Origin: Actinomycetota bacterium
Lineage (GTDB): Bacteria; Actinomycetota; Acidimicrobiia; Acidimicrobiales; RAAP-2
Direction of reading: 5' to 3'
Assembly: GCA_021324355.1 (NCBI GenBank)
Contig: JAJPJD010000045.1
Span: forward strand, 1-64,000
DNA length: 64,000 bases
Position 1 is the stretch's first letter. Every line of letters begins with the position of its first letter. Below the pieces are notes generated by a model. It ran no database searches and was not told the DNA's origin. It worked only from the letters and a program-made list of their open reading frames with translations. The translations under genes were made by a program, and so were the position numbers. Of the stretch, positions 14,446-33,774 are shown in pieces.

Positions 14446-14465
14446 TTCATCGTGTCCAGATGCTA

Positions 14466-14476: not shown

Positions 14477-15286
14477 ATGCCGCTGCCTGATTCCGCCTAC
14501 GCTCGGCTTCTCGCCCTGAGAACCGGCCTCAGGCACTTCGAGGCTTGGAGCGCGGCGCAGGCACGCGCCGCCGGTCTCACTCCTGCGCACCATCAGCTCC
14601 TCCTGGCGATCCGCGGTCATGGCGATCCGAACGGTCCGACCATCGGCGAAGTCGCTGACTACCTGCTCCTCCGACACCACAGCGCGGTTGGGCTGATTGA
14701 CCGGGCCGAGGCCGCCGGGCTCGTGCAACGCACTCGCAGCGAGGATGACCATCGCGTCGTCCGACTGCGCCTCACCGACGAAGGCGCCGCTCGGCTCGAG
14801 GCGCTCTCCGCACTCCACCTCGAAGAGCTCGATCGGCTCGCGCTCGACATCCCCGCTGCGTGGGCAGGGTTGGCTCCGGTCCAGCGAACTCATGGGTTCC
14901 CCGGCCAGCCGGAGCGCAGCACGGGCGCGGCCATAGAGCAGATTGGGATCGCTCGCGCCTACGACGAACCGGAGCCCGGTGCACGCCACGTGCTCGTCGA
15001 CCGGCTCTGGCCACGAGGCATTGCCAAGGACAGGGCGCCATTCGACGAATGGGTCAAGGACGTTGCGCCGAGCACCGAACTGCGGAAGTGGTACGGACAC
15101 GTCCCCGCTCGGTTTGCCGAATTCGGCCGCCGCTACCGCAAGGAGCTGTCTCGCGAGCCGGCAAAGTCCGGGGTAGCCAGCCTCCGCCAACAGGCACGAG
15201 CACGTCGGCTTGTTCTGGTGACTGCAACCCGGGACGTTGAGCACTCGGCCGCTGTCGTCTTGCGTGAGGTGCTCATCGGCAGCTGA
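14477..15286 (+). CDS. MarR-family regulator fused to a DUF488 (YeaO-like) domain
   Basis: 269 residues from the ATG at 14477; upstream codons in frame are the antisense of ClC. Residues ~1-125 are a MarR winged helix (SAAQARAAGLTPAHHQLLLAI, then DYLLLRHHSAVGLIDRAEAAGLVQR, SEDDHRVVRLRLTDEG). Residues ~155-265 are DUF488: VLVDRLWPRGIAKD, KDVAPSTELRKWYGH, FGRRYRKEL, then LVLVTATRDVEHSAAVVL. DUF488 proteins are usually stand-alone and of unknown function. The fusion suggests that the DUF488 part senses or processes the signal read by the regulator. Divergent from ClC, which is its likely target. No ribosome-binding site precedes the start, so a leaderless transcript is possible. Confidence 0.85.
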   Translation: MPLPDSAYARLLALRTGLRHFEAWSAAQARAAGLTPAHHQLLLAIRGHGDPNGPTIGEVADYLLLRHHSAVGLIDRAEAAGLVQRTRSEDDHRVVRLRLTDEGAARLEALSALHLEELDRLALDIPAAWAGLAPVQRTHGFPGQPERSTGAAIEQIGIARAYDEPEPGARHVLVDRLWPRGIAKDRAPFDEWVKDVAPSTELRKWYGHVPARFAEFGRRYRKELSREPAKSGVASLRQQARARRLVLVTATRDVEHSAAVVLREVLIGS

Positions 15287-15606: not shown

Positions 15607-16236
15607 TCACGGCCGAGCCAATCTCGATCTGCGCATCCTGGGTTCCAGTTCCGGGTAGCAGCCCAACTCCCAGGCCTGAACGAACCGCTGGAGGTGCCCA
15701 GGCAACGGGATGGTCACAGTCGGGCGCTGGCGAAGCGTCCGCACGACAGTCACTCGGTCGTGCTCGACGGCCACCGAAGCCACTGACGGGTCAGCGCTGA
15801 TGATTGCCGACAAGTACGAGCTCAATGGACTCTCCAGTGGATCGCGAGCCGAGCGCCGCAGGCCCAGCTCGGCCAGCGACTTCGCTACAGCGCTCGGCGT
15901 CGCCCCCAGCTGGCAAAGCAGCTGGTTGACGTCGCGCGCCATCTGCCGGGCCCTCGGGGTCGCGGTCCCGCGCACCGGATCCTGCCCGGCAGCGCCCGCC
16001 AGCGGGTCACCAGACGCCGCCCTGTCGAGCTCCCAGACCCATCCCACCGCGGCCCAGGACCAACAGATCCCTACCACGCGTTGTGCTACGTGCCTGGCAC
16101 GCCTCGCCCAGCCAGCAAGCACCGCCAGTGCTTTTCTGGGTGCTCGATTGTGTGCCACCGCAGGAGCGCGCTCATCCTGGACTGTGGGCGAGGCATCCGG
16201 AGAAACACGACCCTCGTGTACCGACTTTCTCCCCAT
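15607..16236 (-). CDS. Hypothetical protein with one hydrophobic segment
   Basis: 209 residues, family not recognised. A polar, Arg-rich N-terminus leads to a Trp-rich hydrophobic stretch (~55-70: VVGICWSWAAVGWVWEL). The C-terminal half looks folded: MARDVNQLLCQLGATPSAVAKSLAELG (helical), an SSYLSAIISADPSVASVAVEHDRVTV segment and PTVTIPLPGHLQRFVQAWELG. A start at the internal Met of MARDVNQLL is possible. The opposite-strand frames show no alternative family. Confidence 0.55.
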   Translation of the reverse strand: MGRKSVHEGRVSPDASPTVQDERAPAVAHNRAPRKALAVLAGWARRARHVAQRVVGICWSWAAVGWVWELDRAASGDPLAGAAGQDPVRGTATPRARQMARDVNQLLCQLGATPSAVAKSLAELGLRRSARDPLESPLSSYLSAIISADPSVASVAVEHDRVTVVRTLRQRPTVTIPLPGHLQRFVQAWELGCYPELEPRMRRSRLARP

Positions 16237-16503
16237 GTCGGTTCCCTTTCGACGTCGACCGTCTTGCCATTGCGGGGCCCCCGTTCACACAGCCCCTCCT
16301 GCTCGGGCGCCCCACGTCCCTCCAGGAGAGAACAGCCGATCGATCAGTGCCTCGCTCCTCAACCCTGCTCGGTCACGAGAGGACGACGCCGCCGATCTGC
16401 TCCTGCCGGGATGGGCGCCGGACCAGCCGCTGGGCCGGCCGGCCCCATCCCTTCCCTTGGTCATGCGCTCTGCGTAGGCCGGAGCCCGGCCAGAGCGCGC
16501 CAG

Positions 16504-16932
16504 TTAGGCCACCTGCGGCCGGTCGTAGCTCGACCGCTGGGGCGCCGCCGGCTGTGTCGACGGAAACCAGTGCAGCTGCCCGAGGCCTCGTGCTGCTCGC
16601 CACTGGGAGATCTCGTGGACGGTGAGTCCGGCCAACCCGACAGCTACCCAGCCAAGCGCAAAGGCGAAGGCCGTCCAGCGCTCGACCGAGCCCGCCGTTC
16701 CGACCCCGAAGCCCATCGCCAGGCCGCCCAGGGCGGCCATGGCAGCGTCCAGGACTCGCTGGACCACGCCACGACCCCTGTCCAGCTGGGCCAGGATCGA
16801 GACCGCCACCACGGCGATGCCGAACGCGAAGGCGAGCCAGCCGACCACCGAGGTCGAAAACGACCGGCTCGCGACCACGACGAAGCCTCCGAACAGCGCC
16901 AACAGCACGTTGGTTGCGTATCTACTGCTCAC
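16504..16932 (-). CDS. Four-helix membrane protein, hypothetical (SPW-repeat-like)
   Basis: 142 residues from a GTG at 16932, set by a strong GGAGG six bases upstream rather than an earlier in-frame start. Four hydrophobic helices are visible: TNVLLALFGGFVVVASR, VVGWLAFAFGIAVVAVSILA, AMAALGGLAMGFGVG and WTAFAFALGWVAVGLAG. Layout and Trp placement resemble small SPW-repeat membrane proteins of actinobacteria. A hydrophilic tail follows. Divergent from the peptidase gene at 17077. Confidence 0.65.
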   Translation of the reverse strand: MSSRYATNVLLALFGGFVVVASRSFSTSVVGWLAFAFGIAVVAVSILAQLDRGRGVVQRVLDAAMAALGGLAMGFGVGTAGSVERWTAFAFALGWVAVGLAGLTVHEISQWRAARGLGQLHWFPSTQPAAPQRSSYDRPQVA

Positions 16933-17076
16933 GTCGCACCTCCTTGTGAGGTTGCCAAGCAACACTCTATCGTTTCACGAGCCTATCGGCCACAGATGCA
17001 TTTCGTGCAGTTGCCGGGGCGACCGGCCAACCCGGTCGGATTCCTGTTCGTGACCGGTCTGGGTGGTTCAATCCAT

Positions 17077-19197
17077 ATGGTGGCGACGAGGTCTGGGAAC
17101 GACGGGTGGCCCCCTGGACCCTCGGTTCTTGGCCGGCAACGGACCTGCAGGGCAAGGGGCTCAGGGGAGGACCCCATCCGGGAGCGGTGGTTCCGGTGGT
17201 CGGCCGTCTGGCTCGCGTGGGTGGCACTGGGCATCGTCATGGTCCTGGTCGGCGACCCGGCAGCCAGTGCCGCAAGCCTGCCGGTCACCCGGATCTCCGG
17301 CACCGACGCCATCGGGACCTCGATCGCCGTGTCCCAGCAGGAGTTCCCGACCGACGGATCGGCCAACGCTGTGGTCCTCGCCCGCTCTGACTTCTTTGCC
17401 GATGCTCTGGCCGGAGGGCCGTTGGCCGCCAAGCTGGGAGGGCCACTGCTCATCACCCCTGGTGCCGACCAGAGCTCGACGATCGACCCCCGGGTGCTGG
17501 CCGAGATCGAGCGGGTGCTCCCGGTCGGAAAGACCGTCTACATCCTGGGCGGTGACCTGGCGCTCAGCCCCACCATCGACACCACGCTCCAGGCGCTCGG
17601 GTACCTGACCCAGCGAATCGCGGGGGCCGACGAGTTTGCCACCGCGGTCGACATCGCCGAGGCGCTCGGGAACCCCACAACGATCTTCGAGGCCACCGGC
17701 CTCAGCTTCCAGGACGCGCTGTCAGCGGTCCCGGCCGCCATCGCCGCTCACGGTGCGATCCTGCTCACCGACGGCAGCACCCAGGCGCCCGAGACCGCCG
17801 CCTACCTGACCAACCACCCAGGTGATACCCGCTACGCGATCGGCGGGCCCCTGGCCGCCTACGGCGCTGACCCAGGCGCCACCCCCGTCTACGGCCAGGA
17901 CCCCTACGGAACCTCGGCCGCGGTCGCGTCCACCTTCTTCCCGTCTGCCAGCGTCTTCGGCGCTGCCACCGGGACCAACTTCCCCGACGCGCTCTCCGGC
18001 GGAGTCTTCATGGGCGAACCCACCACAAAGGGCCCGATGCTCCTCGTCCTGCCGTCGGGACCGCTGCCAACGACAATCGCGACCTACCTCGCCTCGGTAG
18101 CCCCAACCCTCACGCAGGGGTACCTGTTCGGGGGGCCGCTCGCGGTTGACGACGCCGTCCTCGCGGAGTTGGAAGCAGCCACCGGCGGGGGCACGGCTCC
18201 GCCACCACCTCCGACACCGTCGCCACTCGGTGTGGTCACGGTCGCACTACCCCAAGGCACCGTCGGCACCGCCTACTCGGCCACCCTGTCGGCAACCGGA
18301 GGGACGCCGCCGTACTCGTGGACGATCACCTCTGGCTCCCTACCCGGCGGGCTCAGTTTGGCTTCGAGCGGGGTGATCTCTGGAACCCCGACCAGCTCGG
18401 GCACCGCGACCTTCACCGTACAGGTCGCCGACTCGACCACCCCCATACCGCAGACAGCGAGCCAAGAACTGTCGATCACGGTGACGCCGGCGCCCTTCAC
18501 CGGCGAGATGTCTCCAAACTGGTCTGGCTATGTGGTCCCATCGAGCCAGATCTTCACCGAGGTGAGCGGGATCTGGACTGTGCCGACCCTCGACTGTGCC
18601 GCCACTCCGAACGCCGGCGCTTCGATCTGGGTCGGGACCGGCGGTGAGGAGTATCCGAACGGGGGATCTTCGGGCGTCCTGCTCCAGACCGGCGTCACCA
18701 CCGACTGCGTCGACGGCATCCAGCAGGACAACGGCTGGTGGGAGGAGTTCCCGACCACGCCCGAGATCTCCTTCTCCGGCTTCCCCGTTTCCCCGGGGGA
18801 CACCATCCAGGCCACCGTCTTCGAGGGAACCACCGGGGCGTGGGAGACTCGGGTGGACGACCTTTCGACCGGCCTCTCGGGAGTCATGGTCACCGACGAG
18901 GGCTGGGGGGTGCTCACCGATGGCAGCACGACCTTCCCGGAGCAGGGGTCGACCGCCGGTCTGTCGTACTCGGGTGGCTACACCGCCGAATGGATCGTGG
19001 AAGATTACGAGGTATCGAGCGGGGAGCTCGTCGCGTTCGCCGATTACGGCACCGTCTCGTTCTCAGGGCTGACGACCAACCTTCGCTCGTCGGACCTCAC
19101 GCCGAACGATGCGGTCGAGATGGTCCAGAGTGGAGTCGTGCTCTCGACACCATCGCCACCAGCGGGTGATGGCTTCTCTCTGAGCTACACAGGCTGA
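17077..19197 (+). CDS. Cell-wall-anchored G1 (eqolisin-type) peptidase with CWB2 repeats
   Basis: 706 residues from the ATG at 17077; the true start may differ, but the signal peptide (~39-66, WSAVWLAWVALGIVMVLVGDPAASA) must be included. Three cell-wall-binding type 2 repeats follow (TRISGTDAIGTSIAV, QRIAGADEFATAVDIAEAL, PVYGQDPYGTSAAV), then a PPPPPTPSP linker, one putative Ig domain (~383-468, PQGTVGTAYSATLSATGG) and a G1 peptidase domain (~476-704). In the last, NWSGY, SIWVGTGGEE, VLLQTGV (candidate catalytic Gln) and TAEWIVE (candidate catalytic Glu) fit the Gln/Glu dyad of pepstatin-insensitive acid proteases. Likely an acid-active protease held at the cell surface. Confidence 0.88.
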   Translation: MVATRSGNDGWPPGPSVLGRQRTCRARGSGEDPIRERWFRWSAVWLAWVALGIVMVLVGDPAASAASLPVTRISGTDAIGTSIAVSQQEFPTDGSANAVVLARSDFFADALAGGPLAAKLGGPLLITPGADQSSTIDPRVLAEIERVLPVGKTVYILGGDLALSPTIDTTLQALGYLTQRIAGADEFATAVDIAEALGNPTTIFEATGLSFQDALSAVPAAIAAHGAILLTDGSTQAPETAAYLTNHPGDTRYAIGGPLAAYGADPGATPVYGQDPYGTSAAVASTFFPSASVFGAATGTNFPDALSGGVFMGEPTTKGPMLLVLPSGPLPTTIATYLASVAPTLTQGYLFGGPLAVDDAVLAELEAATGGGTAPPPPPTPSPLGVVTVALPQGTVGTAYSATLSATGGTPPYSWTITSGSLPGGLSLASSGVISGTPTSSGTATFTVQVADSTTPIPQTASQELSITVTPAPFTGEMSPNWSGYVVPSSQIFTEVSGIWTVPTLDCAATPNAGASIWVGTGGEEYPNGGSSGVLLQTGVTTDCVDGIQQDNGWWEEFPTTPEISFSGFPVSPGDTIQATVFEGTTGAWETRVDDLSTGLSGVMVTDEGWGVLTDGSTTFPEQGSTAGLSYSGGYTAEWIVEDYEVSSGELVAFADYGTVSFSGLTTNLRSSDLTPNDAVEMVQSGVVLSTPSPPAGDGFSLSYTG

Positions 19198-20320: not shown

Positions 20321-21076
20321 GTGAGCGAAGACATCGAAAGCCCCTCGCCCCAGAACTCCAGGTGGCATGGCGTGGCGGCTCGCGTTGTTGCGGCGTTGTC
20401 CCCCTCCCCCCGTCGCTCCGGCCAAACTGGATCGCCCAGCTCAGCAGAGCCTCCAACCTTGACCGAGGCGGGCAAGCGACAAGCCATCTTCAACCTGGAC
20501 CCCAAGGAGCGCCAATGGGGGTTCATCGGGGCAGCCCTGGCCGCGGTCATTGCCCTCGTGGAGGACATCCCGTACGTCCTCAACCCAAGCAAACCGGTCA
20601 AGTTGCCTCCCGGTTCCCATCACAGCTGCACCACCGGGTTCACCTACCACAAGGTGGGCAACGTCTGCGAAGCCATCTACGACCGTGCTCACTGGGAGTT
20701 CGAGCTTGGCTTGCTCCTGGCCTTTGCCCTGGCCATCTTCATTACCGTCCGGGTCGGCCGACGGAGCCCCGTCGGCTTCACCTTGCTCATGGCCGGGTTG
20801 GCGTTCGAAGCCGAAGTCGGCATCCTCGGGATCCCCTTCATCTTCGGCGGCGGTTGGTTGCTGGTCCGGGCGTGGCGAGTCCAGCGCTATGGCTCCCCCA
20901 CCGGGACCAAGGCCAACCCCACCGGAGAGCGCCGACCACCCCCAACCCGTCCTGAGCGGGCCACCCGGTCTAGGAAGTCCAAGGAGCCAGAGCGCAAGAC
21001 GCCAGCTGCGTCGAAGCGATACACGCCCAAGTCGTCCCGCAAGAAGCGGCCGCCGAGTCCTACTCCTCGATCCTGA
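20321..21076 (+). CDS. Membrane protein with basic Pro/Lys-rich tail, hypothetical
   Basis: 251 residues from a GTG at 20321, preceded by GGGGAG; TACCCT nine bases before the GTG could serve as a -10 element. After a ~60-residue polar N-terminus come three helices (~65-85 WGFIGAALAAVIALV, ~128-145 FELGLLLAFALAIFI, ~150-185 FTLLMAGLAFEAEVGILGIPFIFGGGWLLV). An extracellular loop with two cysteines (HHSCTTGFTYHKVGNVCEA) lies between helices 1 and 2. The last ~50 residues are Lys/Arg/Pro-rich (RSRKSKEPERK). This layout recurs in conserved actinobacterial membrane proteins without known role. Its end overlaps the convergent TetR gene by 17 bases. Confidence 0.75.
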   Translation: MSEDIESPSPQNSRWHGVAARVVAALSPSPRRSGQTGSPSSAEPPTLTEAGKRQAIFNLDPKERQWGFIGAALAAVIALVEDIPYVLNPSKPVKLPPGSHHSCTTGFTYHKVGNVCEAIYDRAHWEFELGLLLAFALAIFITVRVGRRSPVGFTLLMAGLAFEAEVGILGIPFIFGGGWLLVRAWRVQRYGSPTGTKANPTGERRPPPTRPERATRSRKSKEPERKTPAASKRYTPKSSRKKRPPSPTPRS

Positions 21077-21659
21077 GCGCTGAGCGCAGCAGTTCCAGGA
21101 CGTCGGCCCTCCGTCGGACCAGGGATCGGGCGGTGGGCTCCTCACCCAGGGCTTTCAGGACCTCTACTTCGGTCACCATCCCGATCACCGTGGAGTAGAT
21201 GGCAAGCAGAAGCAGCCTGGGGTCGTGCCTGCGCATCCGACCGGCATCCATCTCGGCTTTGAGGAAATCGCTGGCGCGCCGCATGAGCGGATCGAGCACC
21301 TCGATCATTTGCGTTGCCGGCGGCGGTCCGAGGCGGGCAACTTCTCGGACCAGGCCGAGCAACTCGGGCCGACGCGCTGCCAGGCGGAACACCGCCCGTA
21401 CCACAGCCTCGACCTTGGCCCAGCCTTCGCCGGCTCCCTCGAGCCCGGACTCGAACGCTTGGGCCAGTTCGGCCGCGCTTCGTTCGATGACTGCGCTCAG
21501 GAGCGCGTCCTTGGTCGGAAACCAGTAGAGGATGGTCTGTTTTCGGATGTCCAGCTGCTTGGCCAGGGTGTCGAGCGACGTGGCCTCGAAGCCACGCGAC
21601 CCGAACGACGTCAACGCGGCGTCGAGAATCCGGTCCGAGGTGCCACCGCCGCCGCCCAT
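21060..21659 (-). CDS. TetR-family transcriptional regulator of the adjacent lipid-type operon
   Basis: 199 residues. The N-terminal helix-turn-helix (~8-55) reads ILDAALTSFGSRGFEATSLDTLAK, then DIRKQTILYWFPTKDALL, with YWFPTK in place of the usual YYHF.K. The C-terminal domain (~60-195) is helical and would bind a ligand. Its ATG abuts the first of two identical palindromes (21660-21697), and the acyl-CoA-reductase operon starts 47 bases away on the other strand. Autoregulation and control of that operon are the natural reading, with a fatty-acyl or aldehyde-like effector as a guess. Confidence 0.92.
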   Translation of the reverse strand: MGGGGGTSDRILDAALTSFGSRGFEATSLDTLAKQLDIRKQTILYWFPTKDALLSAVIERSAAELAQAFESGLEGAGEGWAKVEAVVRAVFRLAARRPELLGLVREVARLGPPPATQMIEVLDPLMRRASDFLKAEMDAGRMRRHDPRLLLLAIYSTVIGMVTEVEVLKALGEEPTARSLVRRRADVLELLRSALRIEE

Positions 21660-21697
21660 CTACCAAATGGTAGACAACCCCGCCTACCAAATGGTAG
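21660..21697. promoter_or_regulatory. Two identical palindromic TetR operators
   Basis: CTACCAAATGGTAG occurs at 21660-21673 and again at 21684-21697. Each is a 6-2-6 inverted repeat (CTACCA/TGGTAG), and each is followed by ACAACC. Centre spacing is 24 bases, just over two helical turns. They fill nearly all of the 47 bases between the tetR ATG and the divergent GTG at 21707, so a bound repressor would cover both promoters. Confidence 0.8.
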
Positions 21698-21706
21698 ACA
21701 ACCGAG

Positions 21707-24082
21707 GTGGGCATCGCCGAGCGCCTGGCCGGGCGGCGGTTCTTCGTGACCGGCGGGACCGGGTTCCTGGGAACCGCCCTCATCGAGCGCATCCTGCGGA
21801 CGATCCCTGATGCCCCGGTGTTTGTGCTGGTCCGGCCAACTCGCCGAGCCGGTGCCCAGGCCCGAGTGGAGCGCGAGATCCTACGCAACGACTGCTTCGC
21901 CCGCCTGCGGGCCGAGCTCGGCGACCGGTTCGACGAAGAGGTCGCTCGACGGGTGACTGGCGTCGCTGGGGACGTCACCATCGACGGGCTGGGGCTCGAT
22001 GATGCTGGCGAGGAGGCGCTGGCCACTGCCGACGTGGTCATCCACTCGGCTGCCACGGTCAGCTTCGACGCCCCGTTGGACCAAGCGGTCGAGATCAACC
22101 TGCTCGGTCCGTCAAGGGTGGCACGTGCCGTTGTGCGCGCGTCGGCCGCACATGGCAGCGACCCGGCCCACCTCATCGCGGTGTCCACCGCCTACGTGGC
22201 CGGGGCTCACCAGGGGGAGACCGAGGAACGACTGCTCTCGGAAGATCGGTTCAATCTGGCCGTGGACTGGGCGGCCGAGGTGGCCAGCGCTCGCCGCCGG
22301 CGCGACGAGGTCGAGGATGCCTCGCGTCAGCCGAGCCAGCTACGGGAGTTCGCCCGACGAGCTCACGCCGAGCAGGGCGCGTCCGGCACCCACCTGCTGG
22401 CCGCTCGGGCGGAGCGGATCCGGGAGGAATGGGTCCGCAGCCAGCTCGTCGAGGCTGGATCGGCTCGGGCCAAGGCGCTGGGATGGCCCGACGTCTACGC
22501 CTTCACCAAGGCGCTGGGTGAACGGGCGCTGGTCGCCCAGCACGGCCCGGACGGCCAGGCTCCGGTCCCGCTCACGATCGTCCGGCCGTCGATCATCGAG
22601 TCGGCCTTAGCCGAGCCGCGACCTGGGTGGATCCGCGGCTTTCGCATGGCCGAGCCGATCATCCTGTCGTTCGCTCGGGGTCTGCTGCGGGAGTTCCCAG
22701 GTGTTCCCGAGGGGATCATCGATGTCATCCCAGTCGACATGGTCGTCGCCACCCTGATCGCGGTCGCATCCCAAGGACCGCAGGACGTGCCGGTCGTCTA
22801 CCACGTTGCCTCCGGGGTGCGGAACCCGCTCGCCTATGGCGAGCTGCTCCGGCTCATCCAGGAGTGGTTCGGCCGCCGACCCCTCTACGACGACCGGGGC
22901 CAGCCGATCTCGCTGCCCCAGTGGACCTTCCCGGGGCGAGGACGGGTGCAGCGCCAACTCCGCCAGGCGACCCGGCTGATGAGCCTGGCGGAGCAGGGGC
23001 TGCAGATGGTGCCGTTCCGCCGCAAGCAGGCCGAGTGGGCCGCCAAGCTCGAGGACCGCCATAGCATGGTCGAACGCGCCCGCGGCTATGCCGAGCTCTA
23101 CGGGGCCTACACCGAGACCGAGGCGCGGTACCGGATCGACCGACTGCTCGAGCTGTACGAGAGCTTGGACCCACAGGACCAGCGCACGTTCTGTTTCGAT
23201 CCGGCAGTGATCGACTGGAGCCAGTACGTCTCCGAGGTCCACCTTCCCTCGGTGGTGGAGCGGGGCCGAGTCCGGACCACGCCCGGCCGCTCGGTCGGCC
23301 CCGACCGCCAGAGCCGCCTGCGCTCAGCGGTGCTGTCGAGCGAGCGCCACCTCGCAGTGTTCGACCTCGAACACACCCTGGTGGCCTCGAACGTGGTCGA
23401 CTCCTATGCCTGGTTGGCCAGCCGGCACCTGCCCGCCAACCGCCGCGTCGCCCTCGTCGCCGACCTGCTGGCGTCGGCTCCCCGCTGGCTGAGCCTCGAC
23501 CGCCGGGACCGCGGGGACTTCCTGCGCTTCTTCTACCGCCGCTACGAGGGCGCGCCAGTCGACCAGATCGCTGAGGATGCCTGGGATCTCTTCCATCAGT
23601 ACCTCCTTGCCCGGTGCTTCCCCGCGGGGATCGCCCGGGTGCGCCACCATCGCAGGCTGGGCCACCGCACCCTGCTCATCACCGGTGCACTCGACCTGGT
23701 GGTGGCCCCGCTGCGCCCGCTCTTCGACGACGTCGTCTGCGCCCGCATGTCCGAGCGCGACGGGACCTTCACCGGGCACCTCACCGAGCTGTCCCCCACC
23801 GGCGAGGCCCGAGCCCTGCTCCTCGACCGCTCCGCGCGCCAGCATGGGTTGTCGCTCAGCGAGTCGGTCGCCTACGCCGACTCGGTCAGCGACCTGGCGA
23901 TGCTGGAGGCCGTCGGCTTCCCGGTGGCGGTCAACCCCGACTCCCGCCTGGCAGCCATCGCCCGACGACGCGGCTGGCTGGTCGAGCACTGGAGCCGAGC
24001 CGCCGGGGGCACCGACCAGCTCCTCCCCTTAGCCGGCCTCGAGCACCGGTCGATCACGACCAGGAACCGGAGTCCCCGGTGA
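21707..24082 (+). CDS. Fatty acyl-CoA reductase-type SDR fused to a HAD-like phosphatase domain
   Basis: 791 residues from a GTG. The N-terminal NAD_binding_4/extended-SDR domain shows VTGGTGFLG (~14-22), STAYVAG, and YxxxK (Tyr 264, Lys 268: VYAFTK), as in fatty acyl-CoA reductases; a FAR-like C-terminal region runs to ~480. Residues ~545-780 are a HAD-IB domain: motif I FDLEHT (Asp 553, with Glu 555 where Asp is usual), motif II LLITGA, motif IV YADSVSDLAML. First gene of a four-gene coupled operon; its TGA overlaps the next GTG. Probable chemistry is NAD(P)H reduction of an acyl thioester; the HAD part may remove phosphate or be inactive. Substrate unknown. Confidence 0.85.
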   Translation: MGIAERLAGRRFFVTGGTGFLGTALIERILRTIPDAPVFVLVRPTRRAGAQARVEREILRNDCFARLRAELGDRFDEEVARRVTGVAGDVTIDGLGLDDAGEEALATADVVIHSAATVSFDAPLDQAVEINLLGPSRVARAVVRASAAHGSDPAHLIAVSTAYVAGAHQGETEERLLSEDRFNLAVDWAAEVASARRRRDEVEDASRQPSQLREFARRAHAEQGASGTHLLAARAERIREEWVRSQLVEAGSARAKALGWPDVYAFTKALGERALVAQHGPDGQAPVPLTIVRPSIIESALAEPRPGWIRGFRMAEPIILSFARGLLREFPGVPEGIIDVIPVDMVVATLIAVASQGPQDVPVVYHVASGVRNPLAYGELLRLIQEWFGRRPLYDDRGQPISLPQWTFPGRGRVQRQLRQATRLMSLAEQGLQMVPFRRKQAEWAAKLEDRHSMVERARGYAELYGAYTETEARYRIDRLLELYESLDPQDQRTFCFDPAVIDWSQYVSEVHLPSVVERGRVRTTPGRSVGPDRQSRLRSAVLSSERHLAVFDLEHTLVASNVVDSYAWLASRHLPANRRVALVADLLASAPRWLSLDRRDRGDFLRFFYRRYEGAPVDQIAEDAWDLFHQYLLARCFPAGIARVRHHRRLGHRTLLITGALDLVVAPLRPLFDDVVCARMSERDGTFTGHLTELSPTGEARALLLDRSARQHGLSLSESVAYADSVSDLAMLEAVGFPVAVNPDSRLAAIARRRGWLVEHWSRAAGGTDQLLPLAGLEHRSITTRNRSPR

Positions 24083-25332
24083 AGGCGGTCGTCTTCGAGC
24101 GGAGCCTGCCGCGGTTCGCAGCAGCCCGCTTGGCGTCGACCCTCGGTTCAGGCCGCGGCGCCCGAGTAGCCCCACTGCGCCTGGTCGACGCCGACCCGCC
24201 AGCGCTCCCGGGGGACGGTTGGCACCATGTGAGCCCGGTGCTCGCCGGGATCTGCGGCTCGGACCTGGCGACCATCGACGGCCGCAGCTCGCGGTACTTC
24301 GAGCCGCTGGTCAGTTTCCCGTTCGTGCCGGGTCACGAGGTGGTGGGCACCATCGCGGTCGAAGCCACGGGGGCCGACCACAACCCGATCCCCGCCGGGT
24401 CCCGGGTCGTGGTCCAGCCGGTGCTGGGCTGCGCAGCCCGGGGCATGACTCGGTGGTGTCGGTCCTGTCGGGAGGGCAACCCCGGGAACTGCGAGCACAC
24501 CAGCCTGGGGCACCTGCGACCGGGGATCCAGATTGGGTACTGCACCGACACTGGCGGCGGCTGGTCCACTGCCGGCCTGGTGGCCCATGAGAGCCAGCTG
24601 TACCAAGTCGCCGAGCCGATGAGCGATGCCGGCGCGGTCACGGTCGAACCGCTGGCCTGCGCGCTGCACGCGGTGGTCGCCGCCGGCATCCGAGAGGACC
24701 AGGTCGTCGCGGTGCTGGGTGCGGGAACGCTCGGACTGGCCACCGTGGCGGCGCTCTCCCACCTCGTCGACCGGGGCGCGCTCGGCCAGCCGGGAGCAGT
24801 TGCGGTTGGGGCACGCTACGAGATCCAGCGTCGGCTGGCCGAGCGCTTCGGAGCCGACGTCGTCGTCGCACCCGACCAGCTCGGCCGGGCGATTCGCCGC
24901 CAGGCGCGCTCGATGGTGGTGGGCGGTCCCGCGGGGGCGAGGCTCACCAGCGGGGCCGACGTGGTGTTTGACTGCGTCGGCTCGTCGGAGTCGATCGCGG
25001 CCGCGCTCGAGATCGTCCGCCCGCGGGGCACCGTGGTCCTGGTGGGCATGCCCGGGCGGGTCCACCTGGACTTGGCCCCGCTCTGGCACCGCGAGGTCCA
25101 CCTCGTTGGCGCCTACGCCTACGGCACCGAGGCCCTCGGTGCCGTGACGCTCCCGACCTTTCAGCTGGCCTTGGAGGCAGCATCGGCCATGGGGACCGGC
25201 CAGCTGGTGTCGGCGACCTACCCGCTGGAACGGTTCGAGGAGGCGGTGGCCCACGCCGGTGCAGCCGGACGCCGCGGCGCCGTGAAGATCGCGTTCGACC
25301 TGCGGTCGAGCACCCGAGGAGGGAGACGATGA
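24079..25332 (+). CDS. Zinc-type medium-chain alcohol dehydrogenase
   Basis: 417 residues from the GTG overlapping the upstream stop. GroES-like N-terminal domain with the catalytic-zinc motif ICGSDL (~58) and GHEVVG (His-Glu), and a Cys-rich stretch for a structural zinc (CRSCREGNPGNCEH, atypically spaced). Rossmann motif VLGAGTLGLATVAAL (~213-227), and VFDCVGSSES typical of threonine/sorbitol-dehydrogenase-like members. It could oxidise or reduce the alcohol/aldehyde made by the upstream reductase. The zinc-binding loop carries an insertion compared with textbook members. Stop and next ATG overlap (ATGA). Confidence 0.9.
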   Translation: MKAVVFERSLPRFAAARLASTLGSGRGARVAPLRLVDADPPALPGDGWHHVSPVLAGICGSDLATIDGRSSRYFEPLVSFPFVPGHEVVGTIAVEATGADHNPIPAGSRVVVQPVLGCAARGMTRWCRSCREGNPGNCEHTSLGHLRPGIQIGYCTDTGGGWSTAGLVAHESQLYQVAEPMSDAGAVTVEPLACALHAVVAAGIREDQVVAVLGAGTLGLATVAALSHLVDRGALGQPGAVAVGARYEIQRRLAERFGADVVVAPDQLGRAIRRQARSMVVGGPAGARLTSGADVVFDCVGSSESIAAALEIVRPRGTVVLVGMPGRVHLDLAPLWHREVHLVGAYAYGTEALGAVTLPTFQLALEAASAMGTGQLVSATYPLERFEEAVAHAGAAGRRGAVKIAFDLRSSTRGGRR

Positions 25333-26918
25333 CCCCACGACCCGGCTTCGTCCTGGAGGTGGACGGCTCGACGCCCCCGACCCTGCTGTGGAACGGGGAA
25401 GGCTTCGTGCTCGAACGGCTCCCCGAGGGGACCAGGGTGATCTACCCTCCCGAGCCGCTTCCGCCCCTGGCCGACCCAGTCGCAGCCATTCGCGACGCCC
25501 TCGAGCACCCGGTCGGGGGCACCCCACCCCTTCGAGCGCTGCTACGGCCCGGCATGCGACTCACGATCTGCTTCGATGACGTGTCCCTCCCGCTGCCGCC
25601 GATGCGCGCCCCCGACGTGCGCCAGATGGTCATCGAGCAAGTGCTCGACCTGGCAGCGGCGGCCGGGGTCGACGACGTCGTCCTGATCGCGGCGCTGGCG
25701 CTGCACCGACGCATGACCGAGGCCGAGCTCCGCCACGCCCTGGGCGACCGCATCTACGAGGCCTTCGCCCCTCACGGGTTGTTGACCCAGCACGACGCCG
25801 AGGACCCCGACAACCTGATCGACTTGGGCCGCACCGCCGAGGGCGAGGAGGTGGAGATCAACCGGCGTGCGGCCGAGAGCGACTTGATCGTCTACGTCAA
25901 CATCTGCCTGGTCGCGATGGACGGTGGGCACAAGAGCGTCGCCACCGGGCTCGCCAGCTACCGGAGCCTGCGCCACCACCACAACCCCACCACCATGCGC
26001 CACTCACGCTCGTTCATGGATGCCCCCTCTTCGGAGCTGCACAGCTCGAACTGGCGCATGGGTCGTCACATTGCGGCCAGCGGCGTGAAGGTGTTCCAGA
26101 TCGAGACCACGCTCAATACCGACACCTTCCCGTCGCAGTTCGCGTTCCTGCAGCGCCGGGAGTGGGAGTGGTCCCTACGAGACCGCGCCGCGTACGCGGC
26201 CAGCGCGGCCGCGCTCGACGCTGTCCCCAAGAGGATCGCCCGCCAGATCTTCCATGCCATCGAGGCTCCGCACCAGATGACATCGGTCCAGGCTGGAGAG
26301 GTCGAAGCCGTCCACGAGCTCGCGCTCGAGCACATCTGGCGCCAGCAGGGCGTCGCAGTGGAGGGCCAGACCGACATCTTGACGATGGGGCTCCCCTACA
26401 TCTGCCCCTACAACGTGCACTCGGTGATGAACCCGATCCTGGTCGCCTGCCTCGGGCTCGGCTACTTCTTCAACCTGTACCGGGGTAAGCCCCTCGTCCG
26501 TCAGGGCGGTGTGGTGATCATGCGCCATCCCACCAGGGCGGAGTTCGACCCCGCCTACCACCCGAGCTACATCGACTTCTACGAGCAGGTGCTCACCGAG
26601 ACCACGGATCCAATCGAGATGCACAAGCTCTACGAGGAGTCCTTCGCCACCGACCCGTGGTACATCCACCTGTACCGCACCGGTCACGCCTACCACGGCG
26701 TGCATCCCTTCTACATGTGGTACTGGTGCGCGCACGCCCTCGAGCACCTCGGTCGGGTCATCGTGGTCGGGGGCGACACCAAGGCCGTCCGCCGGATGGG
26801 CTTCTCGCCGGCCTCCACCCTGGCAGACGCGCTCGAGCTGGCACGCGATGTGGTCGGCCCCTCGCCCACCATCACCCACCTGCACGTGCCGCCCCTGCTC
26901 ATGGCGGACGTGCGATGA
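25329..26918 (+). CDS. LarA-like (lactate racemase / DUF2088 family) protein
   Basis: 529 residues, longer than LarA (about 425). The N-terminal DUF2088-like domain shows ICFDDVSLPLPPM (~80-92), ALHRRMT (His 126, the place of LarA's catalytic His in THRPMT), DAEDPDNLIDLG (~156-167) and GGHKSVATGLASY (Lys 202, the Lys that in LarA carries the nickel-pincer nucleotide). LarA's second His (EPH) and the Arg of DDxxRP are not evident. The C-terminal half is Trp/Tyr/His-rich (WYIHLYRTGHAYHGVHPFYMWYW). No larB, larC or larE is in the window. Embedded in a lipid-type operon, it may epimerise or redox-shuttle an alpha-hydroxy acid intermediate; inference only. Confidence 0.75.
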   Translation: MTPRPGFVLEVDGSTPPTLLWNGEGFVLERLPEGTRVIYPPEPLPPLADPVAAIRDALEHPVGGTPPLRALLRPGMRLTICFDDVSLPLPPMRAPDVRQMVIEQVLDLAAAAGVDDVVLIAALALHRRMTEAELRHALGDRIYEAFAPHGLLTQHDAEDPDNLIDLGRTAEGEEVEINRRAAESDLIVYVNICLVAMDGGHKSVATGLASYRSLRHHHNPTTMRHSRSFMDAPSSELHSSNWRMGRHIAASGVKVFQIETTLNTDTFPSQFAFLQRREWEWSLRDRAAYAASAAALDAVPKRIARQIFHAIEAPHQMTSVQAGEVEAVHELALEHIWRQQGVAVEGQTDILTMGLPYICPYNVHSVMNPILVACLGLGYFFNLYRGKPLVRQGGVVIMRHPTRAEFDPAYHPSYIDFYEQVLTETTDPIEMHKLYEESFATDPWYIHLYRTGHAYHGVHPFYMWYWCAHALEHLGRVIVVGGDTKAVRRMGFSPASTLADALELARDVVGPSPTITHLHVPPLLMADVR

Positions 26919-27901
26919 GGTCATCGGAGGTGTGGCGCAGGCTGGCCAACCAGCAATTCCCGCTTCGCAAGCCAGACTGGCCGGCCAGCGTGGAGCGACC
27001 GGCACCGCGCCGGGGGGTGGGCCTCGACTACGACCACGAGTGGTCCCGTCGCTACCCGGCCAGGCTGCTGCGGGCGGTCCTGCTCGACACCGTGACCCGC
27101 CCCCTCGCCCGATTGGTCGCGCCCATGACCCTGCGAGGGCACGAACACCTGGCCCACTTGGAGCCGCCAGTGATCTTCGTCGCCAACCACGCCAGCCACC
27201 TCGACACCCCGCTGCTCCTCTCAGCCCTGCCGCCCCGTCTGCGCCACCGCACCGTCGTCGGGGCGGCCGCCGACTACTTCTTCGACCGCCCCTGGAAGGG
27301 GGCGCTGTGGTCGCTCACCCTCGCCGCGATCCCCATCGAACGGGCCCGGGTCAACCGTCGCTCGGCCGAGACCGCCACCCAGCTGCTCGGCGACCGCTGG
27401 AACCTGATCCTGTTTCCCGAAGGAGGCCGCTCGCCCGACGGCTGGGCCCAGGAGTTCCGTGGCGGCGCCGCCTACCTCGCGCTGCGCACCGGAGCGCCGG
27501 TGGTTCCGGTCTACCTCAAAGGAACCCGACACGTCCTGCCAAAGCGCGACCCGGGCACGCCCGGCGGTTCAGGGACCGAGAACCGGGGCCAGCCACTGCG
27601 CCGGGGTCCGGTCCTGGTCCTCTTCGGTCTGCCCCTGCGCCCCCATGAGGACGAGGACGCTCGCCGCTTCGCGACCCGAGTCGAGCACGCGGTGGCCCTG
27701 CTGGCCGCCGAAGCGGCGTCCGACTGGTGGTCGGCTCGGCGCCGAGGCGACGTGGACACCGCCCTCCATGGCCCGCAGGCATCGCCGTGGCGGCGAGCAT
27801 GGGCCGACGCTCGCCCGGCCGTGCCCGCCACCGAACGCTCGTGGCCAGGACCGCTGCGCTGGCCAGGCCGGGGGGCTCGGCGCTCCTCGGCCCCACGCTA
27901 G
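26915..27901 (+). CDS. PlsC-like 1-acyl-glycerol-3-phosphate acyltransferase
   Basis: 328 residues from the ATG overlapping the LarA-like stop. Acyltransferase blocks: NHASHLD (~86-92, the HX4D catalytic pair), a second block around IPIERARVNRRS, FPEGGRS (~168-174) and a block IV near VVPVYLKG. No strong membrane helix except a weak segment at ~45-65. The C-terminus is Arg/Trp/Pro-rich. It would transfer an acyl group from acyl-CoA or acyl-ACP onto a hydroxyl, possibly the alcohol formed by the operon's reductases. Fourth and last gene of the operon; its stop overlaps the convergent gatD stop by 4 bases. Confidence 0.9.
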   Translation: MRSSEVWRRLANQQFPLRKPDWPASVERPAPRRGVGLDYDHEWSRRYPARLLRAVLLDTVTRPLARLVAPMTLRGHEHLAHLEPPVIFVANHASHLDTPLLLSALPPRLRHRTVVGAAADYFFDRPWKGALWSLTLAAIPIERARVNRRSAETATQLLGDRWNLILFPEGGRSPDGWAQEFRGGAAYLALRTGAPVVPVYLKGTRHVLPKRDPGTPGGSGTENRGQPLRRGPVLVLFGLPLRPHEDEDARRFATRVEHAVALLAAEAASDWWSARRRGDVDTALHGPQASPWRRAWADARPAVPATERSWPGPLRWPGRGARRSSAPR

Positions 27902-28653
27902 GGGTCGACGCCGGACCCTCGGCGGCGGAGCCGGCGACCGCCCGCGCGACCGAGCACCGCCCCCAGCCGCTCGGCTCGCAACGCCTCCTCCCGGTGGTCG
28001 TCGAGCGGCGGGAGGGACTCCATGCCGGTGGCCCAGGTCAGGAGGGTGTCGGCGAGTGCCGGGTTGCGAGCCAGGACCGGACCGTGCAGGTAGGTGCCGA
28101 CGACCCGACCGCTCCATGCACCGTCGGTGCCGTCGCCGTTGCCCACGCCGTGGCGGAGCGCGCCGAGCGGTCTCACGCCGGGTCCGAGCACGCTGGTCCC
28201 AGCGTGGTTCTCGAAGCCGCTGAGCAACCCGACCCCGGGGATCGTGGCCGCCACTGCCGCCTCACCCACAGCGCGGCGCCGGCGGCCCTTGGCCGTGGCC
28301 ACCTCGAGCAGGCCCAGCCCCGGCACCGGCGCGCCGTCGGCGGCCGGGAAGGTCGTCCCCAGCACCTGGTAGCCAGCGCACACCGCTAGGACCACCGCGC
28401 CAGCGGCTACCGCCTCAGCCAGGCTGCCGTCGCGGGCCAGCAACTCGGCCGCCTGGACCTGGGGCGCGTCCTCGCCCCCGCCGAGCACATAGATGTCGCC
28501 CCGGGGCAGCGCCCGGTCACTGGTCGCCTCGACCAGCTCTGCCGCCACGCCGCGGCGGCGGGCCCGGCCGGCCAGGACGATGCCGTTCCCGCGGTCCCCG
28601 TAGGTGCCGAGGAGGTCCGGGTAGACGACAACGATCCGCAGCGCCTGGGCCAC
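27898..28653 (-). CDS. gatD: Lipid II isoglutaminyl synthase, glutaminase subunit GatD
   Basis: 251 residues. Class I glutamine-amidotransferase of the CobB/CobQ type: YPDLLGTYGDRGN near the start, GGGEDAPQ (~58), the nucleophile Cys in AVCAGYQVLG (~95), GFENHAG (~147) and TYLHGPVLARNP (~190, catalytic His). GatD releases ammonia from glutamine and passes it to MurT, which amidates the D-Glu of the lipid II stem peptide. It follows murT by 3 bases. The C-terminus is Arg/Gly-rich. Confidence 0.95.
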   Translation of the reverse strand: MAQALRIVVVYPDLLGTYGDRGNGIVLAGRARRRGVAAELVEATSDRALPRGDIYVLGGGEDAPQVQAAELLARDGSLAEAVAAGAVVLAVCAGYQVLGTTFPAADGAPVPGLGLLEVATAKGRRRRAVGEAAVAATIPGVGLLSGFENHAGTSVLGPGVRPLGALRHGVGNGDGTDGAWSGRVVGTYLHGPVLARNPALADTLLTWATGMESLPPLDDHREEALRAERLGAVLGRAGGRRLRRRGSGVDP

Positions 28654-28656
28654 TGC

Positions 28657-29955
28657 TCAGTGCGCTCCGGCTCGCAACAGGTCGTAGAAGGCGGTGTAGT
28701 TGCCGACGAACTGCACGACCTGGCCAGGGCCGAGTTCGCCAGCGCGTGCCACCGCACCGAGCGGCTCGGGCACTCGCTCGTGGGAAACTCCGGCGTAGTG
28801 CAGCCGGACCGACAGGTCGAGGCTCCGCTCACCGGTCGCGACCACCGGCCGGCCGGCCAGCCGCTCGAACGGCACGTCCCACAGCCAGGATGGGTCCCGC
28901 CCATCGGCCACCCGGGCGTTGATCGCGATCACGACCGGACCCGGCGTGACCACCTCGAGCAACTCCTCCCAGCCGGCCGGGTTCTTCGCCAGCAGCATCC
29001 GAGTCGGCACCCCGCGCACGTGGCGCAACGCGAACCGTCCGGCCACCTCCTCGACCACTCGCATCGACTCCAACGCAGCCCGCGCGGACAGGCCGAACAC
29101 CTCGGCAGCCGCCGCCGCCACGAGCGCGTTGCGCCGGTTGAAGGCGCCGGGCAGCTTGAGAGCCACCGGGACCAGGCGCCCATCGGCCAGCACGGCGGTG
29201 CGAGCCGCTGGCCCGTCGGCGAAGCCGAACTGGGGCGACGGGCGCCGGAAACCACACCGGCACGACCACGCCTCGCCGTCGTAGGCGATCCCCCCGCCAC
29301 ACGCCGGGCAGCCGGCGGCGTCGGCTCGCCAGCGGACCCCGCCGCCGACCCAGATGACCGACGCCGCGTCGCGCGCCCCGTGGACCACCAAGGGGTCGTC
29401 GGCATTGGCGATCACCGTGGCAGGGGTGCCGGCCAGGGCCCCGCGCCAGCGCTCGGCCACCATCCGGACCTCGCTGCTCCGGTCGAGCTGGTCTCGTGAC
29501 AGGTTGAGCAGCACCACCACCGCCGGAGCCAACGCTGCCAGGCTCTGGGGCAGGTACCCCTCGTCCACCTCGAGCACGGCCGGGCCGCCGGTGCGGGCGC
29601 CAGCGGCCAAGGCGGCAAAGTGCCCGGCGGGCATGTTGGACCCGGTCGAGTTGGTGACCACTGCCGAGCCATGGGACCGCAGCGCGGCCGCCAGCAGGGC
29701 GGTCGTGGTCGTCTTGCCGTTGGTCCCGCTGATGAGGGCGACCCTGCGGCCGGCGGCCAGCTCGGCCAGCCCTCCGGGCGCGATGGCCAGGCCGGCCCGG
29801 CCGCCCAAGACCGTGCCCTGCCCGGCGCCGAGGCGGCGAGAGAGTCCGTTGAGCCCGGCTGCCACCACCATGCCCAGACGAGTCCGCAGGGTGATCCGGT
29901 CGGGGACCGGGGATCCGGCCCCGTCGTGCGCGAGCTCCCCGGGGGTGGCAACCAC
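28657..29955 (-). CDS. murT: Lipid II isoglutaminyl synthase, Mur-ligase subunit MurT
   Basis: 432 residues from a GTG. Mur-ligase ATP site SGTNGKTTTT (~76-85), NLSRDQLDR (~151) and a four-Cys zinc ribbon inserted in the central domain (CPACGGG, then WSCRCGF, ~207-228), a MurT hallmark. The C-terminal DUF1727 domain ends with the VGNYTAFYDL signature. With GatD it converts D-Glu to D-iso-Gln in peptidoglycan precursors, typical of Gram-positives and actinobacteria. The GTG start is plausible, but an internal start near LRTRLGMVVAAG cannot be excluded. Confidence 0.95.
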   Translation of the reverse strand: MVATPGELAHDGAGSPVPDRITLRTRLGMVVAAGLNGLSRRLGAGQGTVLGGRAGLAIAPGGLAELAAGRRVALISGTNGKTTTTALLAAALRSHGSAVVTNSTGSNMPAGHFAALAAGARTGGPAVLEVDEGYLPQSLAALAPAVVVLLNLSRDQLDRSSEVRMVAERWRGALAGTPATVIANADDPLVVHGARDAASVIWVGGGVRWRADAAGCPACGGGIAYDGEAWSCRCGFRRPSPQFGFADGPAARTAVLADGRLVPVALKLPGAFNRRNALVAAAAAEVFGLSARAALESMRVVEEVAGRFALRHVRGVPTRMLLAKNPAGWEELLEVVTPGPVVIAINARVADGRDPSWLWDVPFERLAGRPVVATGERSLDLSVRLHYAGVSHERVPEPLGAVARAGELGPGQVVQFVGNYTAFYDLLRAGAH

Positions 29956-31113: not shown

Positions 31114-32568
31114 ATGCTGAGCACCAAGGTCCCACTCGACGAGCTCGGAGACGACCGGGCACTCGTGCCCACCTATGCCAACCGGGGGCTGGCCCAGCCG
31201 GTCGCCCGCTACGAACTCCCCGAAGAGGGCCTCGAGCCCTCTGTCGCCTACCAGCTGATCCACGACGAGCTCAGCCTGGACGGCAACCCCACCTTGAACC
31301 TGGCCTCCTTCGTCACCACCTGGATGGACGAGGAAGCCGAGCGGCTGATGGCCGAGACCATCAACAAGAACGCGATCGACTGGGACGAGTACCCCCAGAC
31401 GGTCGAGCTCCAGGACCGGTGTGTGAACATGCTGGCGCGCCTCTACGGTGCCCCCGAGGAGCGCCGCAGCGTGGGCTGCGCCACCGTCGGCTCCTCGGAG
31501 GCGATCCACCTGGCCGGCCTGGCCATGAAGTGGCGGTGGCGGTCCGCTCGCCAGGCGGCAGGGCAGACCACTGCACGGCCCAACCTGGTGATGGGCGCCA
31601 ACGTGCAGGTGTGCTGGGAGAAGTTTGCCCGCTATTTCGACGTAGAGCCGCGCTACGTCCCGCTGCGCGAGGACCGGTTCGTGATCGGCGTCGAGGAGGC
31701 GATGGAGCTGGTCGACGAGCACACCATCGGCGTGGTCGGCATCCTCGGCAGCACCTACACCGGGGAGTACGAGCCCATTGCGGAGCTGGCGGCGGCCCTC
31801 GACCGGCGCCAGGCGGACGACGGCCTCGATGTGCCCCTCCACGTCGACGCGGCGAGCGGCGGTTTCGTGGCCCCCTTCCTCCAGCCCGACCTGGTGTGGG
31901 ACTTCCGGCTCGAGCGGGTGCGCTCGATCAACGTGTCGGGCCACAAGTACGGGCTGGTCTACCCCGGAGTGGGGTGGGTGCTGTGGCGGGATCCGAGCGA
32001 CCTGCCAGACGAGCTCATCTTCGAGGTCGACTACCTGGGCGGGAGCCATGCCAACTTCAGCCTCAACTTCTCCCGCGGCGCATCGCAGATCGTCGCCCAG
32101 TACTACAACCTCCTGCGCCTCGGCCGATCCGGCTACCGCCAGATCATGGAGAGCCTGGCCGGCACCGCTCGATGGCTGGCCGATGCGCTCGCCAGCCGGC
32201 CCGAGCTGCAAGTGATCGCGGGCGGGACCGACCTGCCGGTGGTGTGCTTTGCCCTACCGGGCTTGGAGCCCGGGGCGCCCACTGCACTCTCGGCGATCCT
32301 GCGCCGGCGGGGCTGGATCGTCCCCGCCTACAAGCTGGCCCCGAAGGCCGACCACATCGAGGTGCTGCGGGTGGTGGTCCGAGAGGGTCTCAGCCGGGAC
32401 TTGGCCCGATCCCTGGTTGCCGACATCGACGCCGCCCTCCACGAGCTGGCCTCGGGAACCCCCCCGGCGCAGCAGCCCGGTCCGGGGGCGACGCCAGCAC
32501 CCCGGAGCCGCCGGCCAACGCGGCCAGCCCGCCCCCGCCCGGACCGCAAGACCCGGGCGGTGTGCTGA
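31114..32568 (+). CDS. gad: Glutamate decarboxylase (PLP-dependent)
   Basis: 484 residues. Group II PLP decarboxylase of the GadB type: NLASFVTTWMDEEAERLM (~60-77), ATVGSSEAIHLAGL (~125), HVDAASGGFVAPF (~245, Asp for the PLP nitrogen) and SGHKYG with the PLP Lys 278. The start ATG has GGAGG at proper spacing. The last ~35 residues are a disordered Pro/Arg-rich tail (PGATPAPRSRRPTRPARP) not seen in GadB. It consumes a cytosolic proton to make GABA from glutamate, the core of glutamate-dependent acid resistance. No dedicated antiporter is adjacent; the APC permease at 52427 could serve, but is distant. Confidence 0.95.
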   Translation: MLSTKVPLDELGDDRALVPTYANRGLAQPVARYELPEEGLEPSVAYQLIHDELSLDGNPTLNLASFVTTWMDEEAERLMAETINKNAIDWDEYPQTVELQDRCVNMLARLYGAPEERRSVGCATVGSSEAIHLAGLAMKWRWRSARQAAGQTTARPNLVMGANVQVCWEKFARYFDVEPRYVPLREDRFVIGVEEAMELVDEHTIGVVGILGSTYTGEYEPIAELAAALDRRQADDGLDVPLHVDAASGGFVAPFLQPDLVWDFRLERVRSINVSGHKYGLVYPGVGWVLWRDPSDLPDELIFEVDYLGGSHANFSLNFSRGASQIVAQYYNLLRLGRSGYRQIMESLAGTARWLADALASRPELQVIAGGTDLPVVCFALPGLEPGAPTALSAILRRRGWIVPAYKLAPKADHIEVLRVVVREGLSRDLARSLVADIDAALHELASGTPPAQQPGPGATPAPRSRRPTRPARPRPDRKTRAVC

Positions 32569-32574
32569 GGCGGC

Positions 32575-33759
32575 TCAGCGGGAGCTGGCCGCCCACGCTC
32601 GGGCCTCCGTCCCCACCGCCGCCACCAGGTTGCCCAACGCGACGTTGACGTCGGCCAGGTGCAGCCCCCAGCGGGGTCCCAAGACCTGGGTCAGGACCGG
32701 GCGCGGGTCGTCAGGTCTCGGGACCACCTCGAGCCAGCTGGCCCCGTTCTCGGACTGGCAACGAGCGCGGTACCGGCCCGGGAAGCTCACCCAGGCGGTG
32801 GTGGCGCTGGGCTCGGGCCCCACCTCACCGAACGCCGCTCCCGACCCCTGCGGGAACTCCGGGTCCAGCGTGGCCCAGCCGCCGCCCAAGGCCCCGGGGT
32901 CGACGCAGAGGACCTGCAGGCCCGGCCGGCCGGCAACGGCGTCGATCCCCACGCCGACCCGGCCGAACAGGGCGTCGGCCGGCGGCTGGCGCCGAAAGCT
33001 CGAGTAGGCGATGACGCAGCCGACCTGGGTTGGCGTCCGGCACGCCGGGATGTGCCGGAAGGACCCACCGACCGTCCTCCCCACCGGCACGGTCACGTTG
33101 CCCCCGAGCACGATGGCCGACACGAGCAGCCGCCGCAGCCTGGGGGACGGGTCGACCACCTGCTGGAGCAGCCTGATCAGCATCATCGCCCCCTGGGAGT
33201 GGCCAAGGAAGACGATGCCCCGCCCGTGGTTGTCGCGGGCCAGGTGCTCCTCGAAGGCACTGCGAACCGAGTCGTAGGCCAGCGCGACGTCGGCCGGCGT
33301 GACCTGGACCCCGCCCGAGATGGCAGCCAGGGTCAGCTGCCGGTACATCGGGGCCCAGACTCGGCACACCCGGGAGAACTGCGATGCCTGGGCGACTGCC
33401 ACTGCGGTCTCGGCTGGCTGGATGCTGAGGTCGGCGTTGGCGGTCTGCTCACGGCTCACGGTCGGGTAGACGTAGAAGCAGTCGACCGCCGGGTGTGGTG
33501 CCACCCGTGGGGTGCTGGTCCGGCGGCTCCCGTTCGCCGCAATCTCGGTCGTACTGAGCGGGGCCACACAGGGGTCCGGCGAGACGCCGGGCCGGCAAAG
33601 CCACACGGTCGCTGGCGGAGCAGGCTCGGCGGCACTGGCGATCGCGGGGCCGGTGGCGGCCCACAGCGAGCAGGCAACCCCGATCGCCATGGCCAGCCGC
33701 CTGAGCAGGGCAGGCCAGTCCCGTCGGCCCCATCGGGCTGTGCTGGTGATGCCGAGCAC
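32575..33759 (-). CDS. DUF3089 secreted alpha/beta-hydrolase-like protein
   Basis: 394 residues from a GTG at 33759, which avoids overlap with the divergent tldD; the start could also be the Met at 33690. A signal peptide is clear (MAIGVACSLWAATGPAIASA). The mature part has DCFYVYPTVS, VCRVWAPMYRQ and the nucleophile elbow GHSQG (VFLGHSQGAMML), as in DUF3089 proteins, which look like lipases or esterases. Paired cysteines suit an extracytoplasmic location. It converges on the decarboxylase with a 6-base gap. Substrate unknown. Confidence 0.85.
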   Translation of the reverse strand: MLGITSTARWGRRDWPALLRRLAMAIGVACSLWAATGPAIASAAEPAPPATVWLCRPGVSPDPCVAPLSTTEIAANGSRRTSTPRVAPHPAVDCFYVYPTVSREQTANADLSIQPAETAVAVAQASQFSRVCRVWAPMYRQLTLAAISGGVQVTPADVALAYDSVRSAFEEHLARDNHGRGIVFLGHSQGAMMLIRLLQQVVDPSPRLRRLLVSAIVLGGNVTVPVGRTVGGSFRHIPACRTPTQVGCVIAYSSFRRQPPADALFGRVGVGIDAVAGRPGLQVLCVDPGALGGGWATLDPEFPQGSGAAFGEVGPEPSATTAWVSFPGRYRARCQSENGASWLEVVPRPDDPRPVLTQVLGPRWGLHLADVNVALGNLVAAVGTEARAWAASSR

Positions 33760-33774
33760 CCTAGTGTCGGGGCG

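Follow-up and report, generated by a model that had tools for sequence, protein, structure and literature searches.

A conserved TetR-linked operon of Actinomycetota that joins a LarA-like protein to lipid-type enzymes, with ether-type glycerolipids as a possible product

Gene layout and operators

The window, meaning the whole stretch of DNA analysed here, covers 64,000 nucleotides of contig JAJPJD010000045.1 from a member of the Acidimicrobiia (assembly GCA_021324355.1). It contains a regulator gene, two operators and four consecutive genes, with family assignments backed by Pfam and NCBIfam.

21060..21659, minus strand: TetR-family regulator, 199 aa (TetR_N 1e-11), divergent from the operon
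21660..21673: operator 1, CTACCAAATGGTAG, directly adjoining the start codon of TetR
21684..21697: operator 2, a 14-mer identical to operator 1, ending 9 bases before the FAR-HAD start
21707..24082, plus strand: acyl-CoA reductase/HAD fusion (FAR-HAD), 791 aa, GTG start; NAD_binding_4 and a partial Sterile match, with a C-terminal HAD-IB hydrolase
24079..25332, plus strand: Zn-dependent MDR alcohol dehydrogenase (ADH), polyol/ketose-reductase-like, 417 aa
25329..26918, plus strand: LarA-like protein (P0004) of the LarAH14/15/16 group (NF052592), 529 aa
26915..27901, plus strand: PlsC-like acyltransferase, 328 aa (Acyltransferase 4.7e-21; HX4D and PEGxR motifs)

All three junctions between successive genes are 4-base start/stop overlaps. 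The operators stand 24 bp apart, and each consists of perfect 6-bp arms on either side of an AA centre. The initial annotation had described four genes with 4-base overlaps under two identical palindromic operators, and we confirmed its coordinates, junctions and 14-mers; the TetR gene sits just outside the interval that it covered (21660-27901).

Operator-like matches with at most two mismatches numbered four when counted strand-wise, against 0.09 expected from shuffled sequence. The divergent TetR gene is kept in many relatives, and the motif TACC-N4-GGTA lies next to FAR-HAD in 33 of the 37 loci with this gene versus 3 of the 27 without it (the motif occurs 72 times in total in 1.84 Mb of loci). 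Since the motif tracks the divergent TetR gene and the operator matches exceed chance, these data support TetR autoregulation and control of the operon.

Several neighbouring genes were also recorded. A GatD/MurT pair (GATase_3, MurT_C; 27898-29955, minus strand) converges on the operon and is again its neighbour in roughly 25 relatives; a peptidoglycan role is known for GatD/MurT, and we treat the pair as a neighbour, not as part of the operon. On the plus strand, 16081-19197 encodes a large protein that combines CWB2 cell-wall-binding repeats with one Ig-like and one peptidase A4 domain, while 31114-36650 holds a pyridoxal-dependent decarboxylase gene followed by two PmbA/TldD-like genes.

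Conservation, cofactor genes and the Rubrobacter variant

The four genes have stayed linked in much of the Actinomycetota. Near relatives were represented by 80 loci, mostly from Acidimicrobiia, whose LarA-like proteins are 68-90% identical to ours; in 80 of 80 the order is FAR-HAD, ADH, LarA, acyltransferase wherever the contig is long enough, and apart from this core GatD/MurT and a few others are the only recurrent genes. The same order is present in other families of the phylum. Pairwise distances among 76 loci are correlated between LarA and FAR (r 0.94), ADH (0.80) and the acyltransferase (0.90), so the proteins of the operon travel as a unit. The initial annotation had made its pathway idea depend on whether the four families are adjacent elsewhere, and their adjacency across the phylum leaves that idea unrefuted; its claim of an operon is likewise supported.

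At the level of the class, we surveyed 47 near-complete genomes, 27 with a Lar_N protein and 20 without. FAR-HAD was found in 27/27 of the former and 0/20 of the latter (Fisher p 1e-13, shared ancestry ignored). LarC showed nearly the same pattern, with 25/27 versus 0/20 (Fisher p 2e-11, again ignoring shared ancestry), a LarC match being absent from two of the 27 LarA-bearing genomes. The genome that carries the window has larB, larC and larE, all above their NCBIfam cut-offs, and a single Lar_N protein, which is the one in the operon. It thus keeps the NPN pathway, and no candidate client other than the LarA-like protein was found.

Rubrobacter radiotolerans and its relatives carry a variant with the order PlsY-FAR-HAD-ADH-LarA. 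Among the Rubrobacteraceae that have the operon are R. radiotolerans and R. indicoceani, assigned through plasmid contigs that are 100% identical. In 18 of the 18 Rubrobacteraceae loci where the contig reaches that far, the gene immediately upstream of FAR-HAD encodes PlsY, a glycerol-3-phosphate acyltransferase, and the loci of this family showed no PlsC gene next to the operon. In some of them (L176, L177 and L134) other sequence separates LarA from ADH, the distance being about 2 to 6 kb. The genes after LarA in Rubrobacter-type loci, together with two conserved solute-binding genes, were considered as further members and look unrelated.

Sinninghe Damste and co-workers reportedly pointed in 2023 to a putative 1-O-alkyl glycerol phosphate operon in Rubrobacterales, and the PlsY-FAR-HAD-ADH-LarA set is possibly that same operon. 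Mixed ether/ester lipids are reported to be the dominant lipids of Rubrobacterales (Sinninghe Damste et al. 2023, 10.1016/j.syapm.2023.126404).

Active site of the LarA-like protein and features of its partners

P0004 is a full-length member of the LarAH14/15/16 family, which belongs to the nickel-dependent LarA superfamily, matching NF052592 over profile positions 1-520 of 520 with 896 bits against a cut-off of 740; to our knowledge no member of this group has an assigned reaction, and what is added here is the operon context. LarA relatives act on alpha-hydroxy acids, and the initial annotation had proposed such a substrate for this protein. We compared active sites in an alignment of 101 LarA-like orthologues, with LarA residue numbering as reference. 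Asp72, His108, Lys184 and His200 of LarA, which comprise the NPN site and the catalytic His108, correspond to D84, H126, K202 and H218 and are invariant in 101/101. The residues that mark a 2-hydroxyacid racemase or epimerase (LarA sensu stricto), namely His174, Lys298 and Arg75, were found in none of the 101: Arg75 is replaced by Leu, Ile or Cys at position 87 (Leu87 in P0004), Lys298 by Asn368, and no equivalent of His174 is aligned, its column being a gap because the loop is shortened. Position 193, beside this loop, is Asn in 97 orthologues and Cys in 4, including P0004, in which the Cys193 codon occupies 25905-25907 of the window.

Judged by these residues, P0004 is a putative NPN enzyme that has lost the inversion residues, and its active site cannot operate as that of a racemase. 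Groups 14 and 15 had already been noted to be without the second catalytic histidine (PMC12611868). A Frankia LarAH14 member was inactive in all seven reactions assayed, and it has been suggested that groups without H174 and K298 may not invert a stereocentre and might perform another hydride-mediated reaction (PMC7583248). Given this inactivity and the altered residues, the alpha-hydroxy acid step that had been proposed is unsupported.

The fold predicted for P0004 (pLDDT 85, pTM 0.88) is closest to the single-histidine enzymes LarA_Sp and LarA_Bw (PDB 9q3k/9q2u and 9q3j; PMC12611868), at Z 38.9 (9q3k, the best match) and 35.1, compared with Z 29-32 for classical LarA. They share the single catalytic His with P0004 and are 28% and 25% identical to it over the aligned residues, but their Asn185 and Lys76 (PMC12611868) are matched in P0004 by Cys193, in a shortened loop, and by Leu87. 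Their gene context suggested carbohydrate metabolism (PMC12611868), whereas that of P0004 is a lipid-type operon.

FAR-HAD matches NAD_binding_4 (4e-54) and HAD (2e-25), and its nearest solved protein is a fatty acyl-CoA reductase (PDB 7eoz, 1.7e-64). Its Rossmann motif (TGxxGFxG, here TGxTGFxG) and YxxxK are intact across relatives. In the HAD domain the nucleophile Asp553 is near-invariant and a DSxSD motif is conserved; the second Asp of motif I (DxDxT) is replaced by Glu in this protein (DxE) and in the other Acidimicrobiia compared, and is Asp in the Rubrobacteraceae compared. The acyltransferase keeps HX4D and PEGxR across relatives and matches a 1-acyl-G3P acyltransferase (PDB 5kym).

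In the ADH, catalytic C59/H86/E87 and structural C118/C127/C130/C138 are conserved. The best NCBIfam matches of this protein are scyllo-inosose and L-idonate dehydrogenases, both below cut-off, and its PDB matches include a ketose reductase. It had been proposed to interconvert alcohol and aldehyde, a role that is unproven, since the protein resembles the polyol/ketose (secondary-alcohol) dehydrogenases.

The elbA-E ether-lipid operon of Myxococcus xanthus (PMC9131029) has FAR, HAD and PlsC-type domains in common with this one. However, ElbD is a FAR-ACS-ACP-AT fusion, whereas here FAR is fused to HAD and the acyltransferase is a separate gene, and Pfam and NCBIfam searches found no ACS or ACP domain in either protein. 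The elb genes as listed (PMC9131029) are without ADH or LarA, both of which are present here.

Proposed pathway, alternatives and significance

A small lipid or acyl-alcohol pathway, as initially annotated, is the best reading of four families that stay adjacent across the phylum, and we consider a lipid operon well supported. No named pathway was found for this conserved multi-enzyme, lipid-like operon, in agreement with the initial annotation, and a literature search for LarA/DUF2088 together with acyl-CoA reductase or ether lipids found no paper on the combination. For the product we infer an ether lipid, in view of the lipids reported for Rubrobacterales, the PlsY gene beside FAR-HAD in Rubrobacteraceae and the domains shared with the elb operon: our leading explanation, to which we give a probability of about one half, is that the TetR-controlled operon makes 1-O-alkyl (ether-type) glycerolipids, with the NPN protein performing non-inverting hydride chemistry at glycerol C2.

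In this scheme FAR would reduce acyl-CoA to fatty aldehyde or alcohol, the fused HAD domain would probably act on a phosphate ester, and PlsC (PlsY in Rubrobacter) would acylate the glycerol-phosphate backbone. The polyol-type Zn-ADH would handle the C2 ketone or alcohol of a dihydroxyacetone or glycerol derivative. At the same type of C2 centre, the LarA-like protein would hold NPN and move a hydride without inversion, which would explain why a single catalytic histidine is retained. TetR would repress the operon through the twin operators and would probably be released by acyl-CoA or lipid. Points that count against the explanation are the DxE form of the HAD motif in this genome and the two LarA-bearing genomes that gave no LarC match.

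The exact LarA step is a proposal only. In one version, which we rate as quite improbable, the enzyme would transiently oxidize the C2 hydroxyl of 1-acyl-glycerol-phosphate, the fatty alcohol from FAR would replace the C1 acyl group, and return of the hydride to the same face would give 1-O-alkyl glycerol phosphate without AGPS. If true, the protein would form ethers in a redox-neutral reaction, and NPN catalysis would reach beyond alpha-hydroxy acids.

Among the alternatives, an operon for fatty alcohols or wax esters survives best, though we hold it to be unlikely. FAR would supply fatty alcohol, the acyltransferase would esterify it, ADH would recycle aldehyde and LarA would serve an unrelated side step. 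Both FAR and the acyltransferase are intact, a FAR plus PlsC would fit, and FARs commonly feed wax esters (PMC11948995). One locus (L052) also has, about 4 kb upstream of the operon, a gene that by eye resembles WS/DGAT (wax ester synthase; 705-2111, minus strand), beside an AGPS-like gene. The acyltransferase, however, is of PlsC type and is replaced in Rubrobacteraceae by PlsY, an enzyme of glycerol-3-phosphate, and this scheme gives NPN no role despite the co-occurrence of LarA with LarC.

A classical AGPS route in Acidimicrobiia seems highly doubtful to us. It would combine fatty alcohol from FAR, acyl-DHAP from the acyltransferase, a separate AGPS-like ether step and reduction of alkyl-DHAP by ADH, with LarA as an accessory. 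The resemblance of the ADH to ketose reductase suits it, as does an AGPS-like FAD protein in the same genome (P0006; L172 7597-9222, minus strand, contig C59), whose best PDB match is alkyl-DHAP synthase (2.5e-58); by eye, no lipid genes were recognised near P0006. Four loci, L042, L050, L052 and L139, also have AGPS-like genes near the operon. Against this route, there is no AGPS (FAD_oxidase_C) gene inside the operon, and AGPS was rejected as a fixed part of it, since few of the searched loci have it nearby. Nor was an AGPS-like protein found in operon-bearing R. radiotolerans, whose two PF02913 proteins are GlcD-like and YdiJ-like.

With P0006 elsewhere in the genome, LarA need not take part in making ethers there, and in Acidimicrobiia an AGPS may form the ether bond with LarA acting before or after it. 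One genome without this LarA (locus L137) has FAR-HAD near a divergent set of SDR, PlsC and FAD_oxidase genes, which are parts of the classical AGPS route; at 7990-15124 of that locus FAR-HAD is flanked by two proteins related to each other, of which one weakly matches rubrerythrin and fatty-acid desaturase and the other has no match. The PlsA/Ger route to ether lipids was excluded for 25 operon genomes, as none of the 25 has a protein of the PlsA/Ger family (PF09989). Together with the result for AGPS-like proteins in R. radiotolerans, this means that neither the AGPS nor the PlsA/Ger route is evident there.

Least probable is a hydroxy-acid pathway in which LarA would racemise a long-chain 2-hydroxy acid that FAR would convert to a 1,2-diol for acylation: LarA relatives do use alpha-hydroxy acids and FAR plus the acyltransferase could give an acylated diol, but the replaced Arg75 and Lys298, the unaligned His174 and the inactive Frankia protein argue against it. 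A related idea of long-chain diols, for which the literature on Acidimicrobiia and Thermoleophilum gave nothing, was abandoned in view of the LarA active site.

Most likely, the operon makes such ether-type lipids through a chemistry so far undescribed for the nickel cofactor NPN. LarAH14/15/16 proteins are widespread in the phylum, and their fixed gene context reduces the candidate substrates to a short list. If the ether-lipid reading is true, the operon would encode an aerobic route to bacterial ether lipids that uses neither AGPS nor PlsA/Ger, which would bear on the 'lipid divide', and nickel-pincer chemistry would be extended to lipids.
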